Virus record (IMG/VR): IMGVR_UViG_3300017743_000125 | Location: 1-23,809 of that record | Strand: one strand, 5' to 3' | DNA length: 23,809 nucleotides | Source: a virus | Shown here: positions 2,446-22,341 of the stretch, piece after piece | Numbering within the stretch: position 1 is the stretch's first letter | Layout of the letters: each line of letters opens with the position of its first letter | Position numbers and translations under genes: made by a program | The notes under the pieces: model-generated | What the model saw: only the letters and a program-made list of their open reading frames with translations | The model's database searches: none | Told to the model about the DNA's origin: nothing

Positions 2446-2633
2446 CACACAACCCCCTCTAACCAATGATGCAACTCACTGCGCAAACTTTCAGCCTCCT
2501 CAGGAGACAAAACGACATAACCCCCCACAGTCCTCAAAGAGCCCCGCAAAGGTCGAATCAAAACATCCCCAGGGTAGGTGTTCAAGTATCTCTCCTGAGA
2601 ACCACTTGCCCTCACTTCAATCATCGGCTCCAT
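2445..2633 (-). CDS. Small hypothetical protein (62 aa)
   Basis: The ATG at 2633 overlaps the methyltransferase stop (TGATG), and its own TGA overlaps the next ATG at 2445. The product, beginning MEPMIEVRASGSQERY, contains GDVLIRPLRGSLR and a C-terminal helix LSPEEAESLRSELHHWLEG. The C-terminal LSPEEAxxLRxxLxxW pattern is shared in style with the 58-aa protein at 7510-7686 (LTRTQAHTLRLHLNAWA). The two may be distant paralogues of a small phage family. Function unknown. It lies in translational series between two DNA methyltransferases. Confidence 0.7.
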   Translation of the reverse strand: MEPMIEVRASGSQERYLNTYPGDVLIRPLRGSLRTVGGYVVLSPEEAESLRSELHHWLEGVV

Positions 2634-3214
2634 CACTTCTTCCCCTCCATCAGTAACCGTAACGCAAGCTCAGCCTGCTGGGGAACCACACCATTCCCGC
2701 AAGCCTTCAACTCATCCTTACGCGACAACCCCAGGCCAGTAATCCAACCCTTCGGCAACCCCATCATCCACTCAGTGAACTTGCTAGACAACCTGTGAGC
2801 GCCATCCTTACCATCAGGCTCAGTAGGTGCAGGAGCTTCCATGCCCGTTACCTGCTCCCAGCGTTTCACTGCAGGCTCAAAGCGGTCAAAGCGCGACGAA
2901 TAATTCAGCTGCCCTGACAAAGTGACCTGTCCGCCACGCGCCCTAGCCTTCTCCTCAGGCTGATGACCACGCTCAGCCTCACTAGCCGCGGGGGTGCGCA
3001 ATAACAAAGACTCTGAATCGCTGGTGGGGCGCTCCTGCATCGGAAGCTCGAACACCACGCCATTCCGCATCGTACCCGAGGTCATCCAACTCTCCGAGAA
3101 CAGCTCCAAGTGCTCGCAAAGCAGGCTCACCGTCTCCGGCTTCTCCCATACACCACGCACAGTGTTCCACATCGCCACCGGCCTTTGCGCTAAGTAACCC
3201 TCTGACATTTTCAA
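2633..3214 (-). CDS. C5-cytosine methyltransferase, C-terminal part (out of frame with N-terminal part)
   Basis: The frame ending at 2633 carries the second half of a C5-cytosine methyltransferase: RFDRFEPAVKRWEQVTG, then RLSSKFTEWMMGLPKGW, then motif X GNGVVPQQAELALRL. It lacks motifs I-VIII, which lie in the neighbouring frame (2982-3545). Only the portion left of about 2994 is homologous; the 2995-3214 part, in which the methyltransferase reading is the other frame, is probably a shadow. Removing one base from the five-C run at 2990-2994 would join the two into one protein of about 304 aa. No good separate start is seen, so independent translation is uncertain. Confidence 0.65.
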   Translation of the reverse strand: MKMSEGYLAQRPVAMWNTVRGVWEKPETVSLLCEHLELFSESWMTSGTMRNGVVFELPMQERPTSDSESLLLRTPAASEAERGHQPEEKARARGGQVTLSGQLNYSSRFDRFEPAVKRWEQVTGMEAPAPTEPDGKDGAHRLSSKFTEWMMGLPKGWITGLGLSRKDELKACGNGVVPQQAELALRLLMEGKK

Positions 3215-3545
3215 TAACCACCCATCTAGGTCTAATGACCTCTATTGCTTTAGCAAACTCACTCCACAAACCAGATCGAGTGCCATCACCCATCCCAGCT
3301 CTACGCCCCGCCAAAGAAACATCCTGGCAAGGAAACCCACCCGTAAGAATATCCACCGGCTCAACAGAAGCCCAATCCACCTGAGTCACATCACGATAGT
3401 TCGGGACACCAGGGAAGTTAGCCGCAAGGATTTTAGAAGGCGCATCCTCCCACTCACAATGCCAAGCAACCTCAGCATCGAACTGTTTAGCCACAGCAAT
3501 GTCAAGACCCCCATAGCCAGAAAACAGAGAACCAATTTTCATCAT
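2982..3545 (-). CDS. C5-cytosine DNA methyltransferase, N-terminal catalytic part
   Basis: The 187-aa product contains motif I (SLFSGYGGLDIA, residues 6-17), the catalytic PC motif IV (GGFPCQDVSLAG, Cys73), the ENV motif VI (VVIENVRGLL, 109-118) and motif VIII (QRFRVFVIA). It then stops at TAG right after AHPRG. It lacks the target-recognition domain and motifs IX-X, which continue in the +1 frame. A CAWC pair at about 129-132 is an extra feature. The start at 3545 makes an ATGA overlap with the replication gene's stop. As written it would be inactive alone, unless the two halves assemble or ribosomes shift frame at the C-run. It may equally be a sequencing error or a recent mutation. Confidence 0.85.
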   Translation of the reverse strand: MMKIGSLFSGYGGLDIAVAKQFDAEVAWHCEWEDAPSKILAANFPGVPNYRDVTQVDWASVEPVDILTGGFPCQDVSLAGRRAGMGDGTRSGLWSEFAKAIEVIRPRWVVIENVRGLLSAKAGGDVEHCAWCMGEAGDGEPALRALGAVLGELDDLGYDAEWRGVRASDAGAPHQRFRVFVIAHPRG

Positions 3546-4282
3546 TTGCAATCAAACTCCCCAGGCCGACACTCCCAATGCTCACCCTGATCATGCAAAG
3601 ACCTAACCCACTCACGCCTCCCAGGGCCATCCGCCGCGGGCTTCAAAGCCTGCTTATGAATCACAGTCCGAGGCTCCGCAAACTTCACCGCGTTCCTACA
3701 CCAAGTCCGAAACGCCGCATCCCAATCCTTGAACACTGATCCCTTAGCCGTATGAAAGTCTACAAACGCATCCAACTGGTCATCCAACTCCAAAGAAGGG
3801 TGCCTCGCCACCATTGCCTCGCGCAGTGAGTCGCTCAGGGCAAATCGGTCAGGGATTGATGTGGCCTTCTTGGACTTTTTTTCAATATAGTTATCTGGTT
3901 CTAGTTCAGTGGTTCTAGTTAGTTCATCACCTGTGATGACCCCCCTCGTCACTGGTGATGACCCCCCCTCATCATGGGTGAGTACCCCCATCGTCATGGG
4001 TGATGACACTTGCAAGGTATAAACAATCGAGGAGTTATGCCTTTGCTTCTTCGTCATTGCCCCCGCATCCACCAGCTCAAGCGCGGCACGATCCACAGAA
4101 GCCCTGGAACATCGTAGGCGCTCAGCGAGCGTTGCCCTCGATGGGTACGCCTTGTGAGTTTCACTATCCGCATAGCGAGCAAGCACCGCGTATAGCCTCA
4201 CAGCCCTGTCCGAAATGTCAAGGTTAAGCAGCCACTCATCAATGATTGCGAATCGGCGCTCTAGCCTGATGGATTGCTCCAT
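3542..4282 (-). CDS. Replication initiator-like protein with N-terminal winged helix
   Basis: This 246-aa protein has an N-terminal winged-helix segment (residues about 10-80, including YPSRATLAERLRCSRASVDR) like those opening lambda O-type and DnaD-type phage initiators. A low-complexity repeat region follows (about 90-120, with GVLTHDEGGSSPVTRGVITG). The C-terminal region has FVDFHTAKGSVFKDWDAAFR and WCRNAVKF, typical of phage and prophage replication/DnaT-like proteins. The repeat region is where iterons lie at DNA level. It would bind the origin and recruit the host helicase. The start ATG at 4282 is followed by a direct run into the N-domain, and the next gene overlaps by four bases. The family call is by pattern. 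Confidence 0.75.
   Translation of the reverse strand: MEQSIRLERRFAIIDEWLLNLDISDRAVRLYAVLARYADSETHKAYPSRATLAERLRCSRASVDRAALELVDAGAMTKKQRHNSSIVYTLQVSSPMTMGVLTHDEGGSSPVTRGVITGDELTRTTELEPDNYIEKKSKKATSIPDRFALSDSLREAMVARHPSLELDDQLDAFVDFHTAKGSVFKDWDAAFRTWCRNAVKFAEPRTVIHKQALKPAADGPGRREWVRSLHDQGEHWECRPGEFDCK
3877..4006. other. Putative replication origin: four iterons plus AT-rich tract inside the initiator gene
   Basis: Four copies of a 16-bp imperfect dyad start at 3924, 3946, 3969 and 3991, a spacing of 22, 23 and 22 bp (about two helical turns). On the plus strand they read TCATCACCTGTGATGA, TCGTCACTGGTGATGA, TCATCATGGGTGAGTA and TCGTCATGGGTGATGA, separated by runs of 5-7 C. Next to them (3877-3895) is an AT-rich tract with a T-run and AATATAGTTAT. 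Between lie two direct copies of TGGTTCTAGTT (3896 and 3910). Iterons plus an AT-rich unwinding region within the initiator gene match the lambda O/ori layout. Confidence 0.6.
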
Positions 4283-4769: not shown

Positions 4770-5495
4770 CTAACCCCAGGACACTTCAGAACCCCGCATG
4801 CTCTGGCTCTGCGAGATAATCGGCAGCGGGTCTACAACAACCCCATCAATGTGCAACTCAAAGTGCAAGTGTGGCCCTGTAGAAATGCCTGTGTCCCCCA
4901 CTGCCCCCAGAGTTTGACCGCGAGCCACGTTCCCCCCCACACGCACATCATCAGGGATAGACCCCGCCTTCAGGTGAGCGTACACAGTAACCCAGCGCTC
5001 CACCTCACCCTCGGTTATCGGCACAATATGTTCAATTTTCACCCAGTACCCGTAACCCTGATTGATACCAGCCTCAGCCACAACACCGTTCAGGATCGCC
5101 ATGACCGGCTTACCCTCCCCAGGCACAAAGTCCACTCCCTGATGATCGCTACTGCAAGCGCCACAAGGCGCAACCCTCCAACCAAAATCGCTACTGATTT
5201 TCGGGTCATGGACAGGCAACACCGCGCGTGAATAGTTCAGCACATTAGGGCGTTCGATTACCTGCTCCACCTCAGAGGTCACAACCAAGCCCCCAGCCGA
5301 ATCCATATTGAACACAGGCACGCCCTCGAAGCTCAGCCCGTCAATTGGTGTATAAGGCACAGGCTCCCCAAGCGAGGTGCCAGAAGCCCGCAAGACCTCA
5401 GTACCGTTCAAAGTCACGAACATCGGCGCGAACATGTAGAAGAAGATAATCAGGGCACCTGTCAAGCGGTGATAATCCATAAAAGCCCTCAGCAT
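4770..5495 (-). CDS. Membrane-anchored M23-family metallopeptidase
   Basis: The 241-aa product has an N-terminal hydrophobic segment (residues about 12-28, GALIIFFYMFAPMFV), a likely signal anchor or uncleaved signal. A linker of about 65 residues follows, then a LytM/M23 domain (about 95-228). Zinc and catalytic residues are visible: H118 and D122 in SSDHQGVDF, H174 in VYAHL, and H209/H211 in GPHLHFEL. M23 enzymes cut peptide cross-links in peptidoglycan. This one would face the cell exterior from the membrane, unlike the cytoplasmic endolysin at 9643. Two cysteines (CGAC, 111 and 114) could form a disulfide. The ATG overlaps the upstream stop (TGATG). Its place in the recombination operon suggests early expression. 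Confidence 0.88.
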   Translation of the reverse strand: MLRAFMDYHRLTGALIIFFYMFAPMFVTLNGTEVLRASGTSLGEPVPYTPIDGLSFEGVPVFNMDSAGGLVVTSEVEQVIERPNVLNYSRAVLPVHDPKISSDFGWRVAPCGACSSDHQGVDFVPGEGKPVMAILNGVVAEAGINQGYGYWVKIEHIVPITEGEVERWVTVYAHLKAGSIPDDVRVGGNVARGQTLGAVGDTGISTGPHLHFELHIDGVVVDPLPIISQSQSMRGSEVSWG

Positions 5496-7258: not shown

Positions 7259-7513
7259 ATGACCAACCGCAGACAAACCGCGCACCAGCGCTTGCAACAC
7301 TCCATCAATGAGGTTGGTTCTGTGCCCTGTATGGACAACCCCGCTGTGTTCTTTCCCGAGGATTACCCCAACAAAGAAGAACGGGAACAGACCACCCGCA
7401 TCGCCCGCGACCTCTGCAACAAGTGCCCTATCAAAGAACAATGTTTTGAGTACGCTGTCGAGGCTCAGGAGCCTTACGGGATATGGGCTGGCACACTGCC
7501 ATCAGAACGTTAG
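7259..7513 (+). CDS. whiB: WhiB-family iron-sulfur regulator
   Basis: The 84-aa protein has the WhiB signature: C24 (VPCMDNP), then C53-x2-C56-x5-C62 (DLCNKCPIKEQCFEY), the four ligands of a [4Fe-4S] cluster, followed by YGIWAGTLPSER. The G-I-W-A-G turn stands where host proteins have GVWGG. WhiB proteins bind the primary sigma factor and alter transcription; phage versions such as WhiB-TM4 are known to interfere with host WhiB2. The C-terminus stops soon after the turn, lacking most of the basic tail of host paralogues. It is on the plus strand against nearly all neighbours, leaderless, with no ribosome-binding site visible. Its TAG overlaps the TAA of the opposing gene. Confidence 0.93.
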   Translation: MTNRRQTAHQRLQHSINEVGSVPCMDNPAVFFPEDYPNKEEREQTTRIARDLCNKCPIKEQCFEYAVEAQEPYGIWAGTLPSER

Positions 7514-9407: not shown

Positions 9408-9643
9408 TACGCCACCAACTTTGTCAAGAACGGTGCGAGTGCCGCCAGCAACCCGAAGCCACCAACTGCCCACCCAACCCTCATCTCTAATTTGCGAAGC
9501 CTGTTTTCATGGTCATCAATCTTGTCCTCCGAGTCAGGCAGACTGTTAGCGATCTTCTCAAGCAACCGGCCCTGCCGTTGAACCTCAAGATAAATATCTT
9601 TCATCGAAACCTTTACCGCCACAGTGTCAGTGTTCTCAGTCAT
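9407..9643 (-). CDS. XhlA-like membrane protein (holin-associated)
   Basis: The 78-aa protein begins MTENTDTVAVKVSMKDIYLE. It has a coiled-coil segment (EVQRQGRLLEKIANSL and DDHENRLRKLEMR) followed by one C-terminal transmembrane helix (VGWAVGGFGLLAALAPFL) and a KLVA end. A coiled coil plus a C-terminal anchor next to an endolysin is the layout of hemolysin XhlA-type proteins that act with a holin. The start at 9643 overlaps the endolysin stop (TAATG); an upstream GTG at 9655 in the same frame would give four extra residues. Confidence 0.75.
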   Translation of the reverse strand: MTENTDTVAVKVSMKDIYLEVQRQGRLLEKIANSLPDSEDKIDDHENRLRKLEMRVGWAVGGFGLLAALAPFLTKLVA

Positions 9644-10359
9644 TAGCAACACCACCGCTCATCATTGAGAGAACGCTGGATTGCCCTGTAAGTCACTCGA
9701 CCCCACACGCCATCCACCCTGCCTATGTAGTAGCCCCAGTTGTGCAGTTGTTCCTGCACAGCTTTACGGGTCTGTGGCCCCATCTGACCATCGACAGTGA
9801 CACCCACAGCTCTTTGGATAGCGCGGTAAGTGTAGCTACCTGGTTTGCCATCTACGCGCCCCTTGTAGTGCCCTGCTTCCGCAAGTTGTGTCTGCCATGC
9901 CCGCCAGGTGTTTTTCCCCATGCGACCATCCACACGAAGGGCAGGCTTTGCTCCCAGGTTGTTGCTCACAAGGTAAGGCTGAGGGTCTACCTGAGTGCCC
10001 CAAGTTTTGCGAGTCCTCACCTCAAAATGTAAATGATTTCCGGTGCTTGCGCCGGTGCTTCCGCTGGTTCCCAAGAACGCTCCGGGCGCTACCCGCTCAC
10101 CCAGTCTCAGAGGGGTTGCCTCCCGTAGGTGATAGTAAGCGGTGTGAATGTCCCCATGATCAAGGATGAGCGTGTGCCCACCACCGTTAGGACTCCACCC
10201 AATATGCACGACCACACCAGTAGCCGGTGCGCTAATAGGGAACTGCCCGCCAACATCAATGCCTCGGTGCAGTTGCCGTCTGCCATTTATCGGGTGAATC
10301 CGGTAACCGAACCCGCTACGTTCTTTCTTGTCAGCAGGCCAGGGCTTGCTCAGCCGCAT
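9643..10359 (-). CDS. Endolysin: M23 peptidase with C-terminal peptidoglycan-binding repeats
   Basis: The 238-aa protein has an M23 domain at residues 1-130 with zinc/catalytic residues H31 and D35 (LHRGIDVG), H77 (AYYHL) and H109/H111 (GNHLHFEV). A C-terminal cell-wall binding region follows, with three short repeats of the type VDG-x-xG-x-x-TxRA(I/W)Q at about 143-157, 169-184 and 189-200/214-229. There is no signal peptide, so export would depend on the holin. It would cleave peptide bridges of host peptidoglycan at lysis. It overlaps the preceding XkdW-like gene (TAATG) and the following membrane gene. It is the second M23 enzyme of this phage. Confidence 0.92.
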   Translation of the reverse strand: MRLSKPWPADKKERSGFGYRIHPINGRRQLHRGIDVGGQFPISAPATGVVVHIGWSPNGGGHTLILDHGDIHTAYYHLREATPLRLGERVAPGAFLGTSGSTGASTGNHLHFEVRTRKTWGTQVDPQPYLVSNNLGAKPALRVDGRMGKNTWRAWQTQLAEAGHYKGRVDGKPGSYTYRAIQRAVGVTVDGQMGPQTRKAVQEQLHNWGYYIGRVDGVWGRVTYRAIQRSLNDERWCC

Positions 10360-17354: not shown

Positions 17355-18500
17355 TTAGGCCATTGTCAGTTTCTTTATATGCGAGGATCCGTTAGCCACG
17401 CCGGCGGCGATGCGGTACGTGAACCTATAGCCGGTGATGTCGTTTGCGAAGTACGCATCGGTGGAAACGCTTGTTGCGAGTCCGGTGGTTGCGATTTTCA
17501 CCGAAGGCCAGTGACCGAAGAACGCGGCCTGGTTTCCAGTGGTAGCTGCATCCACAGCAGGGTTTTCGTAAACGGGGAACCCAAGCAGAGTAGCGCTTGC
17601 GTTGCCATCCACCGAGGAAACGATTGGGTCGAGAATGTAGCGACCATCCGAATCCTTCAGCTTACGGATCAGAGCCATGGTGCTAGGAGCAACCATAAAT
17701 CCGGTCCCTGGCAAAAGTCGAACCATGCCATCGGGAGCGAAGCAGAGCTCTATCAATTCGTCAGCGGTGATAGCCGTGGCTGAAGCGGCGGTTACGCCAG
17801 CGCCAGCAACAGCTTCAACTGCTGTGTTCACGATGGTGTTCACGCGCGTTCCGATTGCTACGCCCGCATTTTCGATAATCGAGCTTTCGATGTCGAATCC
17901 AGCATCGCTAATCAGCTCGTTAGCAAGCTTCACGATGAAGCCCTGCTTGGCAGGCTGGAGGAGGAGAGAACCATAAGTGTTCTCGGACTCATCCATGGCA
18001 GCGCCAGCAGCGCTTTCCGTTGCAGTGCTATAGGCCGTCATTACGGGCACCCGCAAATCTGATCCTGAGTCCCTGTTGAATACCTCAGAGGTCTCCAAGT
18101 AAGGGCCAACCAATTTAGCGAGCGCGTAAACGCGGTCAAGGAAGTCCACAGGAACAGTGTTCGCAGAAGGAACTAGCGTGGCACGCTTTTCCATCGTGAA
18201 GTCATGTCCACGGATTTCACCGCGAGCCATCGAACGGAACACATCGGCTGCGCCGCGTGCTTCCTCGACAACCTCAAGGCCACGCGAAGCTTCAGAAGCC
18301 TGTGCGAGACGGTCAGCGGAACGACGTGCAACCTCAAGCGCCTCATCAGCTTTGCGGATGTCGCTTTCGATACGGTCAATTTTTTCCAACTCAGCGGAGT
18401 CAAGTCCACGCGAGTCTGCTTCTGCACCGTCAATAACTTCACGGATTTGCATTGTCAGGTTTGCGCGGGCTTCTTCCTGAGTCTTGATGAACTCAGACAT
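17355..18500 (-). CDS. Major capsid protein (HK97 fold)
   Basis: The ATG at 18500 has GAAAGGG upstream, giving 381 aa; a longer frame from 18551 lacks a good site. The first about 100 residues (MSEFIKTQEEARANLTMQIR...) are a charged coiled coil, the scaffold-like delta domain that is normally cleaved by the prohead protease. The HK97-fold body follows, with VPVMTAYSTATESAAGAAMD, LQPAKQGFIVKLANELISDA, the A-domain stretch GFMVAPSTMALIRKLKDSDG, and the C-terminal FFGHWPSVKIATTGLATSVS and TGYRFTYRIAAGV. It has its own promoter and terminator, so it can be expressed at higher level than its neighbours. Confidence 0.93.
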   Translation of the reverse strand: MSEFIKTQEEARANLTMQIREVIDGAEADSRGLDSAELEKIDRIESDIRKADEALEVARRSADRLAQASEASRGLEVVEEARGAADVFRSMARGEIRGHDFTMEKRATLVPSANTVPVDFLDRVYALAKLVGPYLETSEVFNRDSGSDLRVPVMTAYSTATESAAGAAMDESENTYGSLLLQPAKQGFIVKLANELISDAGFDIESSIIENAGVAIGTRVNTIVNTAVEAVAGAGVTAASATAITADELIELCFAPDGMVRLLPGTGFMVAPSTMALIRKLKDSDGRYILDPIVSSVDGNASATLLGFPVYENPAVDAATTGNQAAFFGHWPSVKIATTGLATSVSTDAYFANDITGYRFTYRIAAGVANGSSHIKKLTMA

Positions 18501-18594
18501 AGTATGCCCTTTCAATAGTTTGATTAGTTTGTTTCGCAGTGGTGGTGACACTCAACTACTACCAGCAGCGGTAACGCACAAATCCGGTACTCCC

Positions 18595-19233: not shown

Positions 19234-19274
19234 TTACGCTTCCCGCCTTTTCCATACTTATCTTTACGAGGCAT
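19230..19274 (-). CDS. 14-codon coupled ORF
   Basis: The ATG at 19274 overlaps the protease stop (TAATG) and the TGA overlaps the next gene's ATG. The peptide MPRKDKYGKGGKRK is strongly basic. It may be a real micropeptide, or a translational bridge that carries ribosomes from the protease gene to the 72-aa gene. It is too short for a firm call. Confidence 0.4.
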   Translation of the reverse strand: MPRKDKYGKGGKRK

Positions 19275-20974
19275 TAGAGTCCCATCAAAAGTTCGAGCTT
19301 CTTCTTCTTCAAAGCAAGCATGTCCAGATCACCCTTAGACTCCTCGACCTGCTCCACAGGTGACAGCTTATCCAACACAGTCGTAATGAGTTGCCGGTCA
19401 TCACTGCTGATGTCCTCGCCACTCTCAATCTTCAACAGCGCATCAGCCAAAGCATCAGCATCCACATTGGCCCGTTCTGCAACCTTGTCCCAGCCGCGCA
19501 CCAAAGCGGTGCCGTTGGTCGTGGGGTATGCGGGGAACGCGACACCAGTGGAAACCTCCATCAGGCGAACAGCGTTCAACGTGCGCTCACTGCCATCCTC
19601 ATTCCAGGAGTCACCACCTGAAGGCACAGTAAAACCAAAGGAAAATCCTGTGACATCGCCACGGTTAATGAGCACCTTAGCATCGCGCCCCGCCTGAGTT
19701 TCGGGCAACGTGGCAGACACTCGCAAACCCTGTGCATCCTCAGTCAGCTTCAAAGTTCCACTGCGAGTGGAACCCAACACAGTGGAGCTGTCGTGGTTCC
19801 AAAGTAGTTTCACATCGTTGCGGGATTGCAGGGAACGCTTGAAAGCGCCAGGCGCAATGTATTCCCTGAACGGTAGAGGCTCTGATGCCTCGTTGAAACG
19901 GGCCGCGTACCCGGTCAGGTGCATCCCGTCAGCTTCTTCGCGCACCTCAAAATCGGTAACGGTAACGCGGGTTTCCATCTTGCTCAATGCTTGCCCCTTA
20001 GCTCGGCCTTCATTTTCTTCTTCTATTCTACCAATGACACCCTCGGCATAGTCCATAGCGCGTTGCGCTGATCGGCGGGAGGTGCCTCCACCCCACAAAG
20101 CGATTGCCACAACACCAGGGCTGGGGAAGTCATCGCTGTCAGGGGAAGCTGCCGGTGCATCAAAGTCCACCATGTGACGTGCAAGGAAAGCACGCAACCG
20201 AACCCACTTATCCGCTGTTACCGAACCGCTCTCTAACGCCCTAGCTTCTCGCACAGTCCTATCCAGTAGACCATCGCCGGAAAGTCCCTCAGAATGCCAC
20301 TCAAGCCCTCTGCGGGCACTCGCACGCATGTAAGCCGGTGGTGTCAAATCCACATCGCGGTTCTCAACCTCACCCTGCTCTACCGAGCGGGTGCTTTTCG
20401 GGTGCGCCTCAGGTAGTAAGTCATAATCGGTTATGTAGTTAGCGTTTTCGGGTTTCCCGTTCCGCAACAGATACAAGTAAGCGTTCACTCTCGCCATAGA
20501 CCATGCAGCGCGGGAAACCCCAGGCCGGTGTGAACTTGAATAAGCGCCAGAACCTCTGCGGTACACCGCGGCTAGTTGCCCATAAGTGGTGCGAGTGTAG
20601 GCGGGCTTGTCATCAGCTTCCATTTGCTCATTATGTTCAGAAACTTTGTTTCGCAGAGCAGTCTCAGTCCTCTCGGATAATTTGATGTCCCCGCCAGCGC
20701 CTGAAGCAGAACCATCGGGGTTCTTATCCGAGCCGGTAATCTGATCCTCTGCCGGTGCAGGTTCGGAATCCACGCGGGCTTCATCTTCCCCCTGCCAAGC
20801 GTTGCAATAATGCCCGCCCTGAACATAGTCATCCCAGCGCTCACAATAAGCGCGGCCCTCATCATCCAGCTTCTCCTCATTGAAGAAGATACAGTTACCG
20901 CAAGCGCGACCCTCGGGCACATCCTCGCTAGTGGCGGGCCGGTAGTTGTCCGGTAGTTCTCTGGCTTCTGTCAT
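19274..20974 (-). CDS. Multidomain prohead protease with N-terminal four-Cys module
   Basis: The 566-aa protein matures the capsid. An N-terminal module has C25-x2-C28-x15-C44-x12-C57 (ACGNCIFF, RAYCERW, GGHYCNAW), resembling high-potential iron-sulfur motifs. A middle module (about 100-190) contains KPAYTRTTYGQLAAVYRRGS and SHRPGVSRAAWSMARVNAYL. A third module (about 205-325) contains LTPPAYMRASARRGLEWHSE and VTADKWVRLRAFLARHMVDF. The C-terminal HK97-family protease (about 340-500) has TGYAARFNEAS, the catalytic-His region LLWNHDSSTVLGSTRSG and the catalytic-Ser region VTGFSFGFTVP. It is far longer than the usual 180-250 aa. The ATG at 20974 overlaps the portal stop (TGATG). Confidence 0.88.
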   Translation of the reverse strand: MTEARELPDNYRPATSEDVPEGRACGNCIFFNEEKLDDEGRAYCERWDDYVQGGHYCNAWQGEDEARVDSEPAPAEDQITGSDKNPDGSASGAGGDIKLSERTETALRNKVSEHNEQMEADDKPAYTRTTYGQLAAVYRRGSGAYSSSHRPGVSRAAWSMARVNAYLYLLRNGKPENANYITDYDLLPEAHPKSTRSVEQGEVENRDVDLTPPAYMRASARRGLEWHSEGLSGDGLLDRTVREARALESGSVTADKWVRLRAFLARHMVDFDAPAASPDSDDFPSPGVVAIALWGGGTSRRSAQRAMDYAEGVIGRIEEENEGRAKGQALSKMETRVTVTDFEVREEADGMHLTGYAARFNEASEPLPFREYIAPGAFKRSLQSRNDVKLLWNHDSSTVLGSTRSGTLKLTEDAQGLRVSATLPETQAGRDAKVLINRGDVTGFSFGFTVPSGGDSWNEDGSERTLNAVRLMEVSTGVAFPAYPTTNGTALVRGWDKVAERANVDADALADALLKIESGEDISSDDRQLITTVLDKLSPVEQVEESKGDLDMLALKKKKLELLMGL

Positions 20975-22341
20975 CAAGTAACCGCATCTTTATACACCGA
21001 ATCAGGATTTTCAGGGTCTACCTGTGCCACGCCCTGCAACTGCACTGAAGCCAAACCAGTGTGAGCCACAGCGGGCAACCCAATCATCTCCATAGCCTCG
21101 GCGGGGTCGAACCCAGCAAACACCAGATCGCGCACCATTTGAATCTTCTCGCGTTGCGCCTTCACACCAGATTCAGACAAGCTCACGTTCGCCAATGGGA
21201 CACGCACCGCGCTTGCAGCATCGCCCTCCTGTGGTGATAAGTCCTCCAAGCGGCGCACGTCATTGATCGCCAGGAACCCAGACTGCAACCCAGTGCTATA
21301 CGCGCTGAACCGGCTCTGAATGTCAGCCCTAAGCAAACCGTTCATGTTGAACTTGATAAAACTCTCAGCGCCGCCAGGGTAACGCGACATAAGAGAACTC
21401 ATCGCATCCTCAATCTTTGTCACATAAGGGCGCAACGTGTGAGTCACAAAACCAAGCATGTTCTGCTCAACGCTCGAATAAGTGTTCGTGCCAGGCAGGT
21501 TCAGCATGTGTGACGGTATCCGCCAAATCCGCGCAATATCCTCCACAGCCATTCTGCGGGCCTCTAATGCTTGAGACTTCTCTGGGTCTGCCTGTGTCGC
21601 TTTGAAGCTCGCACCACCGCTGAGAATCCCTGTGCGCCCACTCTTACGCCACCCCTTGTGAGCGTTATCGAATGAACCGCGCAAAGAATCAGCCTGCTCC
21701 AAAGTCAGCGCCCCAGGGTACTCAATAACACCCTGCAAGGTTGTGCCCTGCCCAAAGAAGGTAGCCGCGTAAAGTTCCAACGCCTTAGACAGCCCCAGGT
21801 TTTCTTTCAAAGCGTGAACCCGCGACACGCCGCGCACCGTACCAGGGCGCAACAAGTCAGGAATGTAAAGAATCTGCTCCGAGGTTAGTGGCCTGTCCTC
21901 GCCCTGCACAGTGAACACCAGCAAGCCCTTAGGGTTGCGGGTAATCTCCACAGTGTTCGGGTTCAACACAACCAGGTTCACAACCTCGCCAGCGCGGTTA
22001 CTGAACACCCGCACGAAAGCGTTACCATCCACCAGGAGCGACACCAGGAGACTGTTATAGAAAACAGCGTGCCCGTTGAAGTTCACATCAGGTTGCCCCA
22101 CCCATGAAGGCTTAGGCCGGAAAGGTCTACGGTTGCCATCAGAACGAAAGAAACAATCCACCGGCAAAGTGCTAACAGTGTCAGCGATCAGAGACACAGC
22201 AGAGTGAACCGCTGCAATGGTGAGCGCGTTCGCCTCATCAATGTGAGTGCCTGACTGATTACCCAAAGCAACGTCATCACCAGTCTCCCAAATTGACTGA
22301 AAACTAATTGCCCTATCTTCCCACAGTTTGTTGAATACCAC
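20974..22341 (-). CDS. Portal protein (HK97-type)
   Basis: The 455-aa protein forms the dodecameric DNA gate at one capsid vertex. Typical features: AVHSAVSLIADTVSTLPVDC near residue 45, FYNSLLVSLLVDGNAFVRVF around 90-110, LYIPDLLRPGTVRGVSRVHA with the RG-SP-like turn near 160, SYSSVEQ-like NTYSSVEQNMLGFVTHTLRP at about 285-305, and FIKFNMNGLLRADIQSRFSA toward the C-terminus. The start is GTG at 22341, abutting the TAA of the 43-aa membrane ORF, with GGGG upstream. It is followed by the coupled protease gene. Confidence 0.92.
   Translation of the reverse strand: MVFNKLWEDRAISFQSIWETGDDVALGNQSGTHIDEANALTIAAVHSAVSLIADTVSTLPVDCFFRSDGNRRPFRPKPSWVGQPDVNFNGHAVFYNSLLVSLLVDGNAFVRVFSNRAGEVVNLVVLNPNTVEITRNPKGLLVFTVQGEDRPLTSEQILYIPDLLRPGTVRGVSRVHALKENLGLSKALELYAATFFGQGTTLQGVIEYPGALTLEQADSLRGSFDNAHKGWRKSGRTGILSGGASFKATQADPEKSQALEARRMAVEDIARIWRIPSHMLNLPGTNTYSSVEQNMLGFVTHTLRPYVTKIEDAMSSLMSRYPGGAESFIKFNMNGLLRADIQSRFSAYSTGLQSGFLAINDVRRLEDLSPQEGDAASAVRVPLANVSLSESGVKAQREKIQMVRDLVFAGFDPAEAMEMIGLPAVAHTGLASVQLQGVAQVDPENPDSVYKDAVT

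Follow-up and report, generated by a model that had tools for sequence, protein, structure and literature searches.

IMGVR_UViG_3300017743_000125 is a virus record, and the window is the whole stretch of it that was analysed, 23.8 kb (23,809 nucleotides). Its head genes lie on the minus strand in the order large terminase, portal, prohead protease and HK97-fold capsid, and the protease ORF carries additional modules upstream of its catalytic domain.

20974..22341, minus strand: portal protein gene, upstream neighbour of the protease (PF04860, E = 1.2e-73)
19274..20974, minus strand: prohead protease ORF, long product of 566 aa, its ATG overlapping the portal stop (ATGA); S78/HK97 protease by Pfam and NCBIfam
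20435..20590, minus strand: DUF5824 module (PF19141, E = 1.3e-6, 29 bits, cut-off 25)
19988..20356, minus strand: "mid" module, matching phrog_2859, function unassigned (E = 5.8e-14)
19505..19951, minus strand: Peptidase_S78 domain, HK97-type prohead protease (PF04586, E = 2.2e-44; TIGR01543, E = 1.2e-33)
17355..18551, minus strand: major capsid protein gene, HK97 fold, downstream of the protease (PF05065, E = 1.4e-27)

The assignment to the HK97-type prohead proteases (S78) is given by the conserved domain, by the His and Ser (H394 and S445, invariant in the 8 relatives compared) and by the portal-protease-capsid block. DUF5824 and the phrog_2859-like "mid" region are the two further modules that the original prediction, made from the letters of the window, had placed before the protease. 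The latter is also found in most relatives with the N-terminal module described below.

The N-terminus of the ORF reads MTEARELPDNYRPATSEDVPEGRACGNCIFFNEEKLDDEGRAYCERWDDYVQGGHYCNAW. The four-cysteine pattern claimed for it, C-x2-C-x15-C-x12-C, is an exact match: it spans residues 25-57 (window 20804-20902, minus strand), with the cysteines at C25, C28, C44 and C57.

20792..20956, minus strand: HiPIP-like domain (HiPIP, high-potential iron-sulfur protein), residues 7-61 of the long product, by profile, profile-profile and fold comparison
20900..20902, minus strand: Cys25 codon, proposed cluster ligand 1 (invariant, 107/107)
20891..20893, minus strand: Cys28 codon, proposed cluster ligand 2 (invariant, 107/107)
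20843..20845, minus strand: Cys44 codon, proposed cluster ligand 3 (invariant, 107/107)
20804..20806, minus strand: Cys57 codon, proposed cluster ligand 4 (invariant in the 106/106 that reach the position)
20795..20797, minus strand: Trp60 codon, HiPIP-like aromatic three residues past the last Cys (invariant in the 105/105 that reach the position)

These counts are taken over 107 distinct HMM-aligned homologues, with contig-end truncations set aside. Because the regular expression used to collect modules itself requires four cysteines, their conservation was recounted on the HMM matches, and all four are invariant there. The Cys codons vary synonymously between TGC and TGT, the median pairwise dN/dS of the module is 0.105 (233 pairs), and by these codon comparisons the module is under purifying selection. 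One match in a Slackia genome contig was rejected as chance, its frame overlapping a phosphatase-like gene.

The phage probably has an actinobacterial host, as suggested by a WhiB-like gene, by the 74% identical module of the Pontimonas phage phiPsal1 and by matches to the module in an uncultured Microbacteriaceae MAG. The WhiB-like gene (window 7259-7513, plus strand; PF02467, E = 3.3e-15) lies on the strand opposite to most genes; the WhiB family is known for [4Fe-4S] sensor-type factors, and this gene encodes a second likely [4Fe-4S] protein in the phage. Elsewhere in the window, on the minus strand, a C5 DNA methylase (2633-3551) appears divided between two overlapping frames, the N-terminal half at 2982-3551 and a C-terminal-looking part at 2633-3214, through a frameshift, a sequencing error or a true split. 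Two M23 peptidase genes are also on the minus strand (4770-5495 and 9643-10359), one with peptidoglycan-binding domains and the other with an N-terminal hydrophobic segment.

How close is the module to a HiPIP? Residues 1-64 score 20.0 bits against PF01355 (HIPIP), and the whole protein 14.3, so that the window protein falls under the curated cut-off of 22 bits. Two relatives reach it (L011 and L041, 22.1 and 22.0 bits), and HIPIP also matches the modules of 26/29 relatives. The window module alone scores nearly as well with DUF7140 (19.1 bits, cut-off 27 bits). This family (PF23601) is haloarchaeal, occurs in Haloferax volcanii and has no assigned function; judged by its sequence, it may be another HiPIP-like family and a possible relative of the module. 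Searched singly against the PDB, the window module finds a HiPIP at E = 0.58, behind antibody chains. A profile of 29 modules has HiPIPs as its top six PDB matches, with 1hpi at E = 0.0084 and Cys aligned on Cys, and profile-profile comparison of the modules with 10 HiPIPs gives a probability of 95.9 and a score of 45.0. In 200 trials in which the profile was shuffled with the four Cys columns fixed, the mean score was 12.0 and the maximum 24.4, and within-segment shuffles reached at most 35.7. Since none of the 200 Cys-fixed shuffles comes near the real score, the similarity is more than cysteine spacing. It holds for type A modules alone, with the two type B members removed (42.4), and for the type B family described below (47.4).

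The four cysteines stand in HiPIP order and spacing, and the surrounding residues point the same way. Nearly all type A modules have aromatic residues where most HiPIPs have them (C2+3, C3+3, C4-1 and C4+3) and at C2+2, which is aromatic in half of the HiPIPs. The strict HiPIP signature, C-x(6,9)-[LIVM]-x(3)-G-[YW]-C-x(2)-[FYW], is found in all 10 control HiPIPs but in 0/57 type A and 0/27 type B modules. Because this signature fails in every phage copy and the window copy scores under the Pfam cut-off, the module is classed from its sequence as a divergent HiPIP-like domain outside the curated HiPIP family.

Structure prediction followed by a fold search, proposed as a check at the outset, places the module with the HiPIPs. 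Of the two outcomes named beforehand as refuting the HiPIP idea, an unrelated fold and cysteines that vary among homologues, neither occurred. An AlphaFold2 model built without templates from 39 phage sequences has a module pLDDT of 85.4. The first seven Foldseek matches in the PDB are all HiPIPs (E 0.32-0.75, TM up to 0.61), the next being unrelated (E = 2.2). In VIA-align eight HiPIPs come first (Z 4.3-5.3, 53-58 residues aligned), followed at Z 2.6 by 2y8n_B, a glycyl radical enzyme chain that is probably the HPAD small subunit. Zinc-ribbon and rubredoxin folds are absent from the PDB fold matches of the predicted module. Taken alone, the match of the predicted model is modest (Foldseek E 0.3-0.75, VIA-align Z about 5), and it is the agreement between methods that carries weight. 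A full-length protease model from 8 sequences has a pLDDT of 47.9, too low for use.

A second, intermediate phage family ties the modules more firmly to the HiPIPs. Type B comprises 53 distinct sequences with the pattern C-x2-C-x8-C-x12-C-K-x-W preceded by DGAHYVAESPF, found in loci L164-L242 (for instance L176 and L203). Its members lie on the N-terminal or C-terminal side of the protease, in a central position, or in small separate ORFs, such as the one for a stand-alone 111-aa protein that separates the protease gene from the capsid gene (L167:3902-4234). Its profile finds the Rhodothermus marinus HiPIP in the PDB at E = 2.7e-6, 1hpi at 0.0018 and PioC at 0.022; PF01355 matches 27/27 members at E up to 1, and the type A and type B profiles align with a probability of 93.9 and a score of 36.3. 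The HiPIP likeness first read from the N-terminus is therefore upheld by the Pfam match of 20.0 bits, the PDB profile search, the controlled profile-profile comparison, the predicted fold and this family.

Further arrangements occur in other phages. Both kinds of module, A and B, are combined in one protein at L099:3845-5314, with the protease as the next gene, and the Actinomycetia phage DSL-LC01 carries a HiPIP-like module at the C-terminal end of its capsid maturation protease (L155:622-3177). The Pelagibacter phages HTVC202P (L157:2953-3159) and HTVC111P (L156:2971-3180) encode possibly related stand-alone proteins of 68-69 aa with a similar four-cysteine pattern outside the head genes; Pfam HIPIP does not match these two proteins.

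The module behaves as a movable part. In about 150 ORFs from loci selected for the HiPIP-like module (some counted twice) it is shuffled among other modules ("GCHxTKxxA", Tudor-like, DUF5824 and "mid"), in most cases within the protease ORF. It can also have a gene of its own, which comes immediately after the protease in L060 and immediately before it in L099. A search made with the protease domain finds type A in 18/71 relatives with an intact 5' end. The closest comparison comes from L246 and L248, which share with the window the portal end (92%), DUF5824 (85%) and the protease (95%), and in which the module is absent from the stretch examined. As they keep a 95% identical protease without the module, the protease does not need the module in order to be retained. 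By these sequence comparisons the module is common among these phages and strictly conserved where it occurs, yet close relatives lack it.

Is the module really fused to the protease? The single ORF bears this part of the original prediction out; a conserved in-frame start with a Shine-Dalgarno-like sequence, lying between the modules and the protease, qualifies it.

19994..19999, minus strand: Shine-Dalgarno-like AAGGGG upstream of the internal TTG
19985..19987, minus strand: in-frame TTG start codon at residue 330, which would give a 237-aa protease without the modules (NTG in 55/69 distinct junctions)

An NTG codon occupies this one position between "mid" and the protease in 55/69 distinct junctions. 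The Leu and Val residues at this site all have TTG or GTG as codon (43/43), against 26-27% elsewhere in these genes, and Shine-Dalgarno-like runs of at least 4 occur at 49/69 junctions against about 24% of control sites. These figures are inflated by relatedness (a nearby site gives 17/20), but here the first base varies among T, G and A while "TG" is kept. Such a pattern suggests two products, a module-protease fusion and a free protease. At the L265 junction a stop lies two codons past the internal start (GTG TCG TAA), and this copy looks broken or misassembled.

The explanation that we favour, with fair though far from full confidence in it as a whole, is that of an exchangeable [4Fe-4S] domain of divergent HiPIP fold, carried on the long product as a docking or cargo unit in the prohead, with the protease also made alone. 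The first 61 or so residues would form a compact domain in which, most likely, C25, C28, C44 and C57 hold one [4Fe-4S] cluster packed beneath the conserved aromatics Y11, F30, F31, W47, Y56 and W60. It belongs to an exchangeable set (HiPIP-like A and B, "GCHxTKxxA", Tudor-like, DUF5824 and "mid") strung before or beside the protease, while free protease would be produced from the conserved internal start. Gene context and the attached protease suggest that the long product probably enters the prohead along with the protease; there the cluster domain could serve as a small, rigid docking or cargo unit, possibly freed by the protease, and this role is the least certain part of the explanation.

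The main rival concerns the metal. The same HiPIP-like fold could bind one zinc ion, or one ion of some other metal, and serve only as a structural knuckle, which we consider a real but clearly lesser possibility. Four cysteines are able to bind zinc, the phage copies diverge from HiPIPs, and some weakly similar viral models bear automatic zinc-finger names. Moreover, a four-cysteine accessory subunit of MASS, predicted to carry [4Fe-4S], proved to have a rubredoxin-like fold with one Fe, so that a metal predicted from a motif can turn out wrong (PMC12358834). Against zinc stand the lack of zinc-ribbon or rubredoxin among the PDB fold matches, the conservation of the cluster-shielding aromatics of HiPIPs at the same positions, and a profile similarity to HiPIPs that extends to non-Cys columns. 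A [4Fe-4S] cluster is the likely occupant on this sequence evidence.

What would the cluster do? The original prediction had offered it as a structural or redox element of capsid maturation, and one could picture a sensor of redox state, O2 or NO that controls prohead maturation or sets the time at which proteolysis occurs: HiPIPs are redox proteins, module and protease share a polypeptide, and the phage encodes a WhiB-like protein as well. The distribution of the module makes such a sensor improbable, as type A occurs in so few of the relatives with an intact 5' end, nearly identical proteases exist without it, the conserved internal start would yield a module-free protease, and L060 and L099 place the module on another polypeptide. 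Nor do these observations support the proposal of a part in capsid maturation. The 95% identical protease without the module, the separate module genes and the conserved internal start argue instead that the module is probably an exchangeable accessory domain, stabilised by a cluster and belonging to the long product, and not a redox part of proteolysis; a docked or carried mini-domain fits them better than a redox switch does. That the four cysteines took up this spacing by chance, or form disulfides in a domain with no relation to HiPIPs, is the least credible reading and is disfavoured, for although short Cys-rich sequences easily give weak matches and the window module alone reaches a HiPIP only behind antibody chains, the Cys-fixed shuffles stay far below the real score, type B reaches a HiPIP at E = 2.7e-6, the leading fold matches are all HiPIPs, and a cytoplasmic capsid-assembly protein is an unlikely disulfide site.

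In the open-access literature no study of HiPIP-like domains in phage head proteins was found. Some viral proteins bear the automatic name "High potential iron-sulfur protein like", so automatic annotation has already noted a likeness of this sort. Fe-S clusters of phage particles are known at tail tips (lambda gpL-like proteins) and are not known in head maturation factors. The occurrence of a HiPIP-like domain in environmental phage head genes, hundreds of them, would place this fold in a new setting, away from the periplasm and electron transport. Since modules swap beside a near-constant protease and the internal start is conserved, a neglected question becomes testable, namely the function of the variable extensions at the N-terminus of prohead proteases. 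More speculatively, phage head-assembly genes could harbour an extensive clade of HiPIP-like [4Fe-4S] domains, so far undescribed, that act as exchangeable internal-head modules, packaged with the protease and used in or delivered from the capsid, a conserved second start separating free protease from fusion; we put this forward tentatively.

Among known systems, the HiPIPs themselves (PF01355; Rhodothermus marinus 3h31, Ectothiorhodospira vacuolata 1hpi, PioC) share with the phage module the C-x2-C-xn-C-x12/13-C order and spacing, the aromatics after Cys2 and three residues past Cys4, an upstream Tyr and the predicted fold. HiPIPs are exported bacterial electron carriers, whereas the phage domain lies in a head-gene polypeptide a few residues from the N-terminus, with no room for a signal peptide; they also have the strict G-[YW]-C that the phage domain lacks, its window copy scoring under the Pfam cut-off. 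An intracellular precedent for a HiPIP-like [4Fe-4S] domain on a partner is offered by the accessory subunits of glycyl radical enzymes (HPAD gamma, BSS beta, MASS beta/gamma), which are HiPIP-like, have a CX2CXnCXnC pattern and aid the solubility of the partner enzyme or regulate it, the HPAD small subunit being described as HiPIP-like (PMC12358834). The chain 2y8n_B is the VIA-align row after the HiPIPs, and MasB turns up weakly in sequence searches. They differ in being separate subunits of anaerobic enzymes with no link to phages or proteases, and their sequence similarity to the module is marginal.

On the phage side, the phrog_80 profile of head maturation proteases (PHROG 80) spans both module (E = 5e-18) and protease, and the prohead protease of Pontimonas phage phiPsal1 has a 74% identical module in the same gene order, which its source paper does not discuss as HiPIP-like (PMC6106888). 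Both are annotated as plain proteases, with the HiPIP-like nature unmentioned. The internal start recalls the nested head genes of the lambda C/Nu3 type, in which a second start in one frame gives another head-assembly product; there the internal product is a scaffold, whereas in the window gene it would be the protease itself. For a packaged cargo the precedent, by analogy, is DarA of P1, an internal protein that the prohead protease trims and that leaves the head together with the ejected DNA (PMC12810830).
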